In this document: positions 4,942 to 40,335 of the stretch, in pieces
How the letters are laid out: every line of letters begins with the position of its first letter
Numbering within the stretch: position 1 is the stretch's first letter
Notes under the pieces: generated by a model
Seen by the model: the letters and a program-made list of their open reading frames with translations, nothing else
Told to the model about the DNA's origin: nothing
Databases searched by the model: none
From: Oscillospiraceae bacterium
Lineage (GTDB): Bacteria; Bacillota; Clostridia; Oscillospirales; Acutalibacteraceae
DNA length: 64,000 bases
Direction: 5' to 3'
Assembly: GCA_015065585.1 (NCBI GenBank)
Contig: SVQC01000002.1
Coordinates: 1 to 64,000 of the forward strand
Program-made: the position numbers and the translations under genes

Positions 4942-5940
4942 TTATTTTTGCCATGACCCCGGCACATAAATCTTCTGGTAAACTACCGTAGCATAATGGT
5001 CAGTCATACCTGCAATATAGTCAACCACAGCCCGTTCTTTACCGCTATGTTCACAAATTTCCCTATATTCTTTTGGAAGCTTGTCTGCATTAGCTATATA
5101 GTAATCATAAAGACCCTTGACAAAATCATAAACCTTTGTTTCCTCTGATTTAGCCTTAGGATTTCTGTAAACATATTCGAAAAGGAAATCGTGAAGACGG
5201 TCAAAGCAATCCTTGGTCTTTTCATCCATACATATGGTTTCCTTGCTGTTATTTATAACCGATAACACGAGGGTATTTATTCTGTCACTCTTTGAATTAC
5301 CTAAATAAGTTTTTATATCTTCGGGTATATCATCGCCACTTATTATACCTCCGCGTATAGCGTCGTCAATATCGTGGTTAATATAAGCGATTCTGTCTGA
5401 GATACGAACAACTCTTCCCTCTAAGGTTTCAGCTTCATCGCCCTTAGTGTGACATTTTATACCGTTAAGTACTTCATAGGTGAGATTAAGTCCCTTGCCT
5501 TCTTTTTCTAAGAATTCACAAACCCGAACGCTATGCTCATAATGGGTAAAACTAAAGGGTGCAAGTGCATCTAAAGCCCTTTCCCCAGCATGTCCGAAAG
5601 GTGTATGTCCTAAATCGTGACCTAAAGCAATAGCCTCTGTTAAATCTTCATTAAGACGCATTGCCCTTGCTATTGTACGTGCTATCTGAGATACCTCTAA
5701 AGTATGGGTAAGTCGTGTTCTGTAATGGTCAGACTCAGGGGATAAAAACACTTGTGTTTTATGCTTTAGGCGTCTGAATGCCTTAGAGTGTATAATACGG
5801 TCGCGGTCGCGCTGAAAATCTGTACGTATTTCACATTTCTGTTCCTCTTTTTTTCTGCCTTTACTCATATCACTGAAAGCGGCACAGGGAGAAAGAATTA
5901 AATGCTCGGTTTTTTCAATACGACAACGGATATTCTCCAT
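4942..5940 (-). CDS. dgt: dGTPase-like HD-domain triphosphohydrolase
   Basis: This protein probably hydrolyses dGTP or other dNTPs to the nucleoside and triphosphate. The HD-domain metal ligands are visible as RLTHTLEVSQ, then GHDLGHTPFGHAGE, and a later SDRIAYINHDIDD segment. At 332 residues it matches the short Firmicute subfamily. AGGAG lies 8 bases before the ATG. It is followed after 19 bases by dnaG, an arrangement widespread in Clostridia, which fits coupling of dNTP pools with replication. Confidence 0.93.
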   Translation of the reverse strand: MENIRCRIEKTEHLILSPCAAFSDMSKGRKKEEQKCEIRTDFQRDRDRIIHSKAFRRLKHKTQVFLSPESDHYRTRLTHTLEVSQIARTIARAMRLNEDLTEAIALGHDLGHTPFGHAGERALDALAPFSFTHYEHSVRVCEFLEKEGKGLNLTYEVLNGIKCHTKGDEAETLEGRVVRISDRIAYINHDIDDAIRGGIISGDDIPEDIKTYLGNSKSDRINTLVLSVINNSKETICMDEKTKDCFDRLHDFLFEYVYRNPKAKSEETKVYDFVKGLYDYYIANADKLPKEYREICEHSGKERAVVDYIAGMTDHYATVVYQKIYVPGSWQK

Positions 5941-10205: not shown

Positions 10206-10234
10206 TTGACAAATCTAGTTTTATTGGTTATAAT
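10206..10234 (+). promoter_or_regulatory. Strong SigA promoter of tRNA-Pro
   Basis: A perfect TTGACA (10206-10211) and a perfect TATAAT (10229-10234) are separated by 17 bases. It begins only 11 bases after the stop of the UPF0210 gene. Confidence 0.85.
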
Positions 10235-10270: not shown

Positions 10271-10346
10271 CGAGGTGTGGCGCAGTTGGTAGCGCACTAG
10301 TTTTGGGAACTAGATGCCGCAGGTTCGAGTCCTGTCACCTCGACCA
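10271..10346 (+). tRNA. tRNA-Pro (anticodon TGG), CCA encoded
   Basis: All four cloverleaf arms can be drawn. The acceptor stem is CGAGGTG with CACCTCG, the anticodon stem is CTAGT with ACTAG, and the T-loop is GGTTCGAGTCC. The anticodon TGG at 10304-10306 reads proline codons. The discriminator A and CCA end are encoded. A strong promoter lies upstream and a terminator directly downstream. Confidence 0.97.
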
Positions 10347-10350
10347 AAAA

Positions 10351-10379
10351 TCCGTCGACTTTGTCGGCGGATTTTTTAT
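10351..10379 (+). terminator. tRNA-Pro terminator
   Basis: A 9-bp stem (10351-10359 with 10363-10371, one G-T wobble) with a TTT loop is followed by six T residues. Confidence 0.85.
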
Positions 10380-10380
10380 T

Positions 10381-10494
10381 CAAGCCGATAGGCTTGGTAT
10401 ATCATCACGCGATAGCGTGTATATCATTGCCACATTTATGCGGCGTATATCATCACACCATAGGTGTGTATGCCTATATCGGCTTGATGAGATG
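10381..10494. repeat. Nested multi-hairpin element with GTATATCAT linkers
   Basis: This intergenic element is closed by an imperfect long inverted repeat (starting CAAGCCGATAGGC near 10381 and ending TATCGGCTTG near 10486). Inside it are three short hairpins: CACGC/GCGTG, GCC-CAT/ATG-GGC and CACACC/GGTGTG. Each is joined to the next by nearly identical linkers GTATATCATC or GTATATCATT. It has no coding potential of its own. From memory, intergenic palindromes with the same linker are frequent in some gut Clostridia. The function is unknown: a non-autonomous repeat or a structured RNA are both possible. Confidence 0.7.
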
Positions 10495-10505
10495 CAGTAG
10501 CTTTT

Positions 10506-10536
10506 CCGCTGATGAAAATTAGCGGATTTTTATTTT
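10506..10536 (+). terminator. Terminator-like hairpin after the repeat element
   Basis: TCCGCT and AGCGGA pair across a 10-base loop and are followed by a T-rich run (TTTTTATTTTTT). It may stop read-through from the tRNA or end a transcript of the repeat element. Confidence 0.65.
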
Positions 10537-39097: not shown

Positions 39098-39192
39098 AAG
39101 CCTCATCTTTCGGTAAAACCGCAGGATTTAGCACCTTGAAAAATCAGGTTGCCGGGCATCAAAGGGCCTGTCCCTCCGCCACTCTTGATAAG
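39098..39192 (-). promoter_or_regulatory. SAM-I riboswitch (S-box) upstream of metK
   Basis: Read on the minus strand, the leader contains CTTATCAAGAGTGGCGGAGG, then GATGCCCGGCAACC, GGTGCTAAATCCTGC and ACCGAAAGATGAGG, which are the conserved S-box blocks in the right order. The aptamer directly precedes an intrinsic terminator and metK. Confidence 0.97.
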
Positions 39193-39214
39193 GAAATATT
39201 CATTTAGCAAAATT

Positions 39215-39895: not shown

Positions 39896-39914
39896 AAAAA
39901 TTACAAAATTAATA

Positions 39915-40024
39915 ATAATTCTTTCATCCGGACTTTAACCGTCGGCTTCGGAATTTCACCGAATCAGTCATTAAGACTCGCGGACTTTACCGCCGGTGGA
40001 GAATTTCACTCCGCCCTGAATTAT
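39915..40024 (-). promoter_or_regulatory. FMN riboswitch (RFN element) upstream of ribU
   Basis: On the minus strand the RFN blocks are in order: AGGGCGGAGTGAAATTC, CCGGCGGTAAAGTCCGCGA, GATTCGGTGAAATTCCG, and CCGACGGTTAAAGTCCGGATG. The closing P1 stem pairs 40018-40024 with 39915-39921. The 5' edge of P1 overlaps the stop codon of the DUF1294 gene. FMN should cause termination before ribU. Confidence 0.97.
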
Positions 40025-40335
40025 ATAAATTTTAATATGAGATAAAGTAATAAAAAATGCAGTATAATCATTAACGGTAACAGTAACATAAATTTTATAT
40101 GCTTTGTTTTATGCCTGATTAAAAGCATAGTTGTATACATAGTTGCCGCACCGCCGAAAAAAGCAGTAAGCAAAAGATTTTTTTCACTTATCCGCCTTTT
40201 ACCTTTAATAGCTTTTTTCTTATCAGAAACCGTAATAAAAACAGCCACTAAGCTAATAACCAAAATGTATATAAAAATAACTTCGGTCAAACCTATCACC
40301 AAAGCTAATATAACACAACCTATATTTAATTTCAA
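40021..40335 (-). CDS. DUF1294 membrane protein
   Basis: This 104-residue protein has about three hydrophobic helices and the DUF1294 signature GGAATMYTTMLLIRHKTKHIKF. Its function is unknown. Its stop codon (40021-40023) lies within the P1 stem of the FMN riboswitch, so the riboswitch transcript either starts inside this gene or continues from it. It diverges from the lipoprotein amidase. Confidence 0.85.
   Translation of the reverse strand: MKLNIGCVILALVIGLTEVIFIYILVISLVAVFITVSDKKKAIKGKRRISEKNLLLTAFFGGAATMYTTMLLIRHKTKHIKFMLLLPLMIILHFLLLYLILKFI

Follow-up and report, generated by a model that had tools for sequence, protein, structure and literature searches.

Results

A hairpin array directly behind a tRNA-Pro gene

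The window analysed in this study, a stretch of 64,000 nucleotides (nt) from an Oscillospiraceae bacterium (contig SVQC01000002.1, positions 1 to 64,000), carries behind a tRNA-Pro gene an array of short hairpins that belongs to an apparently undescribed family of small DNA insertions, linked to the gene for S23p, the 23S rRNA intervening-sequence protein (PF05635). All parts of the array lie on the plus strand. The tRNA-Pro (TGG) gene occupies 10271-10346, with a perfect -35/-10 promoter at 10206-10234, and the unit that abuts its 3′ end starts at about 10347, directly after the CCA, with an intrinsic terminator hairpin (10347-10379; A-rich before the stem and T-rich after it) whose position and symmetry recur in the copies of relatives. 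At 10381-10494, an outer imperfect inverted repeat then encloses, as a unit, three short hairpins joined by GTATATCAT linkers. The 5′ outer arm (10381-10397) can either form the local hairpin CAAGCC-GATA-GGCTTG or pair with the 3′ outer arm, in which case CAAGCCGATAGGC (10381-10393) faces GCCTATATCGGCTTG (10472-10486) with a 2-nt bulge; the same dual pairing is seen in relatives (AAGCCGCAGGCTT / CCTGCGGCTT). Between the arms, the forward linkers F1 (10397-10405), F2 (10419-10427) and F3 (10445-10453) alternate with hairpin 1 (CACGC-GATA-GCGTG, 10406-10419), hairpin 2 (TGCCACA-TTTA-TGCGGCG, with one A.C mismatch, 10428-10445) and hairpin 3 (CACACC-ATA-GGTGTG, 10454-10468). The last 9 nt (10486-10494) are the reverse-complement linker GATGAGATG, R1 of the family consensus, which opens a right half that is degenerate in this copy: one or more hairpin remnants follow at 10495-10511, and R2, R3 and the terminal hairpin of the family plan are missing. 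The window copy, which holds the left half and R1 only, is right-truncated and contains no open reading frame (ORF). A second intrinsic terminator lies downstream of the array (about 10505-10536), possibly the displaced original terminator of the tRNA-Pro gene.

The linker GTATATCAT occurs four times in the window against 0.52 expected, three times in the array (starting at 10397, 10419 and 10445) and once in isolation at 5325. The folding energy of the 114 nt is -45.2 kcal/mol (z = -5.3), and none of 200 shuffles folded equally well or better; the minimum-energy fold is not exactly the three hairpins, because the linkers and hairpin 2 have competing pairings. An earlier note, made from these letters alone, had described an outer imperfect inverted repeat enclosing three hairpins, and every one of these parts was found. 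Its statement that all three hairpins sit between linkers holds for hairpins 1 and 2, but no forward linker follows hairpin 3, and the reverse linker closes the stretch instead. No Rfam model matched the array above its gathering score, and a relaxed threshold gave only the tRNA and chance matches. In the literature, the linker string was met in unrelated papers only, and topic searches returned no description of tRNA-linked hairpin arrays, in agreement with the note's view that the element is undescribed.

A multi-copy family between unrelated flanks

In the 1.5-Mb source genome, the extended linker GTATATCATC occurs 29 times, forming eight arrays and isolated matches, and five of the eight arrays lie behind tRNA genes (Arg, Cys, Pro, Tyr and Arg). 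A two-linker pattern detected arrays in 14 of 98 relatives and gave no control matches, which bears out the suggestion that the element is multi-copy in gut Clostridia. We read 128 oriented copies from genome contigs and viral loci, and a scan of species genomes gave at least 120 stretches; among the matches listed, the named source records are uncultured Clostridia or Oscillospiraceae metagenome-assembled genomes (MAGs), mostly from the ruminant gut. These copies share a common plan. Behind the CCA end of the tRNA come a terminator symmetrical enough to work on both strands, ATCC, the hairpin AAGCC-GCA-GGCTTGG, about three repeats of F-linker and hairpin, and CCTGCGGCTT, for which the first arm is a possible pairing partner; two to four repeats of R-linker and hairpin follow. 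The linkers are 7-9 nt long, and the R-linker is the reverse complement of the F-linker. A co-directional tRNA gene, of many isoacceptor types, ends 41-55 nt upstream in 67 of the 119 copies that had enough flank to be scored, and 18 more have one within 400 nt. No copy was met in a 23S rRNA gene helix, the window copy lying behind tRNA-Pro and those of relatives behind tRNA genes or other terminators.

Array pairs of 92-99% identity lie between unrelated flanks. Their identity mostly sets in at the terminator start (-53 to -57) or at its U-tract (-16) and extends to between about +90 and +205. For example, the arrays L088 and L089 of one MAG are 99.1% identical over 215 nt and have different neighbours, and L068 and L089 are 98.6% identical over 221 nt between unrelated flanks. 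The gene encoding a DUF711 protein was considered as a synteny anchor and rejected: the gene is conserved, but tRNA-Pro does not adjoin it in the relatives read, and the comparison sites were therefore taken from the tRNA-Pro genes themselves. Of the tRNA-Pro genes of relatives, 29 loci were read, with the TGG anticodon in 23 and the same-genus genome G001 among the sources, and all lack an array. Therefore, as judged by this comparison of sequences, the window array is an accessory insertion.

Several loci carry further structures. In nine of them (L103, L093, L079, L137, L146, L147, L151, L177 and L180), segments of 150-250 nt lie upstream of the array, between the full tRNA and a duplicated tRNA 3′ end of about 20 nt; several contain an inverted T-arm-like stretch, and they have the appearance of another element, of miniature size, that targets tRNA genes. 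At L070, L072, L076, L095, L098 and L109, the 5′ outer hairpin carries in its loop a nested palindromic insert (TAGGGGTTCCCCGAAGCGAGCTTGCCGAGCTTTGGGGGTTCCC and variants) about 45 nt long. Some arrays (L068, L081, L089, L110 and L160) are followed by a conserved GTTCGAATTCATACGCAAAA..ATATCTTTTTTGTAGCCCATAGCCA that resembles a tRNA 3′ end and in some cases stands directly 5′ of the next terminator. At L180, a type-A array beside tRNA-Arg lies at the edge of a 48.5-kb predicted viral contig of IMG/VR and probably represents host DNA flanking a provirus.

Stems vary and linkers are exchanged together

The hairpins are drawn from a recurrent repertoire, and their stems covary. Across 29 distinct 15-nt hairpins of the right half, pair 4 is TA in 11, CG in nine, GC in five and AT in one, and pair 5 is GC in 13 and AT in 12. 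Watson-Crick pairing in these hairpins reaches 94%, compared with 73% when the arms are re-dealt (maximum 83% in 1000). The earlier claim that the stems differ and yet keep pairing is thus confirmed; the broader claim that structure and not sequence is kept is right as to the pairing, but the hairpins come from a repertoire and the linkers are conserved within each lineage. Between lineages, the linkers are swapped together (GTGAAGC, GTGATGC, AATGATG, ATGAAGC, TTATATT, TGAAATC, TATTCAT and others), yet the reverse copies still complement the forward ones. The innermost linkers (position 4 of the last F and position 6 of the first R) do not covary, with C.T at the variable position in 41 of 64 arrays. 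Pairing of these linkers as a trunk is unsupported, and we therefore consider recognition sites the likelier role of the linkers.

The right end overlaps a promoter in many copies. For last hairpins with TTG at the end, TTGATT is a possible -35 box, and a TATAAT-like box follows 16-18 nt on in 29 of 51 copies, with a spacing of exactly 17 nt in 28 of these matches; none of 30 GTG-ended copies has such a -35/-10 pair.

Arrays are linked to PF05635 genes

Among the 86 first downstream genes read for type-A copies, the commonest protein was a cluster of 10 (115 aa), a member of which matches PF05635 at 1.8e-19; the array-downstream protein is related to the five-chain structure 2RLD. No PF05635 gene lies directly downstream of the window copy. 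The only such gene in the source genome adjoins an array on contig C31 and looks truncated at the C-terminus. PF05635 is present in all 14 array-bearing genomes (p = 5.5e-5 among 60 genomes of the family).

The association was also seen from the side of the gene. An inverted 7-mer array lies upstream of 33 of 70 PF05635 genes in the family, compared with 7 of 608 control tiles (p = 9e-30), tandem heptamers lie upstream of 18 of the 70, compared with 1 of 608, and one or the other is found upstream of 48. Seven is the sole period between 4 and 12 that appears upstream of PF05635 genes, and it is absent from shuffles. Elsewhere in the phylum, 8 of 30 PF05635 genes have tandem heptamers at the same threshold. 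A position behind a co-directional tRNA gene was found for 27 of the 70 genes in the family and for none of the 30 elsewhere (p = 1e-5). Solo arrays with the same linker often accompany the S23p-linked array of a genome (G054, G103 and G113). The link between arrays and PF05635 is new. At two loci (L188 and L189), PF05635 genes follow a T-box-like terminator and a truncated tRNA-Leu.

Two other candidates were rejected as universal partners: reverse transcriptase, found in 4 of the 14 array-bearing genomes, and Y1 transposase, found in 7. Y1 matches do occur in the source genome, none with a demonstrated link to an array.

The neighbouring genes in the window (DUF711, DUF6774, DUF421 and Mn-catalase) are ordinary. 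S-adenosylmethionine (SAM) and flavin mononucleotide (FMN) riboswitches lie at 39100-39194 and 39912-40027 on the minus strand.

Discussion

A proposed S23p-associated mobile element

How might these arrays have reached their sites? We consider, with a probability of roughly 60%, that the window copy is an ORF-less, right-truncated, non-autonomous S23p-associated mobile element whose insertion sites lie directly behind tRNA genes. Of the options in the earlier note, a non-autonomous mobile repeat is the best; that reading is partly supported, although it missed or left unsettled the setting at a tRNA 3′ end with a terminator, the right half with its reverse linkers, the overlap with a promoter and the link to PF05635. 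The element would carry its own terminator, presumably in every case, and the tRNA would therefore remain functional, while the last hairpin of many copies would supply the -35 box of a promoter for the downstream sequence. In a minority of copies, that sequence encodes S23p, a small four-helix-bundle protein with solved homologues that form five-fold rings. From the co-occurrence and adjacency of gene and array, we infer that S23p binds the cognate linkers, as duplex, single strand or transcript, and has a part in mobility, through a copying chemistry by which it would help the array to spread to new tRNA 3′ flanks. Most copies, the one in the window included, would be passengers, in the way that repetitive extragenic palindromes (REPs) relate to the genes of REP-associated (RAYT) transposases, and the S23p-associated element may have taken to tRNA 3′ flanks in this bacterial order.

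Several observations weigh against this interpretation. About 76 of the 86 type-A arrays have no adjoining S23p gene, the solo arrays of G104 do not match the linker of that genome's S23p gene, and some copies sit behind terminators of protein genes and not behind tRNAs. The link to S23p is guilt by association, and the Fisher tests ignore phylogeny. To our knowledge, PF05635 has no catalytic activity. We observed no event of transposition, nor could we define a target-site duplication at the compared junctions. Nearly all data are from MAGs, in which repeats this short can cause chimeric joins; L086 and L113, identical over 5.3 kb with different left sides, are such a suspect join. Finally, L131 and L159 have both locus and array in common, and some copies are therefore old and stay put.

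Alternative explanations

The array might instead be an integron-like recombination site of a tRNA-anchored gene-cassette system, in which array, promoter and one gene move together. Serial arrays 0.8-1.6 kb apart with ORFs between them (L058, L130, L141 and L173), the 92.6% identity of L079 and L143 over 959 nt of array plus gene behind different tRNAs, and the duplication of tRNA 3′ ends at several junctions are all consistent with such a system. However, most downstream genes are ordinary and not common to the copies, and two detectable arrays occur at nine loci only, so that we regard this explanation as unlikely.

It also seems improbable that the array serves the host in transcription, insulating a highly transcribed tRNA gene against the promoter that follows it, as a fail-safe terminator, a roadblock or a supercoil sink like the gyrase-binding bacterial interspersed mosaic elements (BIMEs). 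The array does stand between a terminator and, in those 29 TTG-ended copies, a promoter whose -35 box overlaps the last hairpin, and it is near-palindromic and could therefore work on both strands. Nevertheless, its absence at the tRNA-Pro genes of relatives and its patchy distribution between species speak against a host function, which would also leave the linker lineages and the association with S23p unexplained.

A structured non-coding RNA, transcribed by read-through from the promoter of the tRNA gene, would fit the covariation of the stems, and the strand bias in part. On the tRNA-sense strand, the left-half stems contain G.T rather than A.C at a ratio of 39:9, but those of the right half do not share this bias (2:5); likewise, 20 of 27 S23p-linked arrays fold better in sense, but only 30 of 84 left halves do so, a mixed outcome for which we rejected sense-strand folding as proof of an RNA function. 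Because the array sequences are related, neither the G.T and A.C counts nor the folding counts are independent. Considering, in addition, that the array sits behind an intrinsic terminator and that the innermost linkers do not covary, we find it quite improbable that the array acts as an RNA, and its folded form could be a structure of either RNA or DNA.

A classical REP or miniature inverted-repeat transposable element (MITE), moved by a Y1 transposase of the RAYT or IS200 kind or copied by a reverse transcriptase, would account for intergenic, many-copy hairpins flanked by short motifs, and the PF05635 homologue Avd does partner a reverse transcriptase in diversity-generating retroelements (PMC10053308), but it is very unlikely given that PF05635 is found in 14 of 14 array-bearing genomes against 7 for Y1 and 4 for reverse transcriptase, and that no conserved REP palindrome core was seen, the stems varying and the linkers being conserved.

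Comparison with known systems

Returning to the S23p-associated element, these arrays, which mark tRNA genes with linkers that vary by lineage, offer testable binding sites and a natural assay for element movement, and thereby a handle on the function of the orphan S23p. Heptamer repeats show an unexplained excess in bacteria (PMC4692102, PMC4679880), and the arrays may also point to one shared cause behind some of these. We tentatively entertain the wider possibility, itself rather doubtful, of a two-component mobile system without a recognised transposase, in which an S23p/Avd-like ring would read the 7-9-nt linkers and propagate the array into tRNA 3′ flanks, with rRNA intervening sequences (IVSs) and many bacterial tandem heptamers as sister footprints of the same protein family.

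The closest likeness is to the 23S rRNA IVS. That of Coxiella burnetii, which has been called a selfish element, has heptamer GACAGAT repeats of strain-variable copy number directly before the S23p ORF; no function is known for S23p, and what IVSs do and how they arose is unclear (PMC4990558). PF05635 also resembles Avd, which serves diversity-generating retroelements as an accessory protein (PMC10053308). Like the IVS, the array family would be a selfish element at a stable-RNA gene, with a PF05635 ORF and short repeats directly upstream of it, a heptamer in Coxiella and a 7-nt period or 7-9-nt linkers here. Unlike the IVS, the arrays lie 3′ of tRNA genes, have their own terminator and an inverted hairpin array, and are mostly ORF-less. 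The arrays resemble REPs and BIMEs with their RAYT genes in having many short palindromic solo copies, one or a few genes beside cognate repeats per genome, and a modular mosaic structure; however, the stems vary and the linkers are conserved, the reverse of REPs, and the associated gene is S23p and not a Y1 transposase. Streptococcal BOX elements and MITEs are likewise modular, non-coding, intergenic, mobile-looking and structured. In contrast to them, the arrays prefer tRNA-terminator sites, and the array comparisons revealed neither terminal inverted repeats nor target duplications, the hallmarks of MITEs. Finally, although the array unit is about 22-26 nt and neither integrase nor cassette array was shown, no search having been aimed at recombinases, the arrays share with integron attC arrays conserved cores, variable hairpins and possible gene units between copies.
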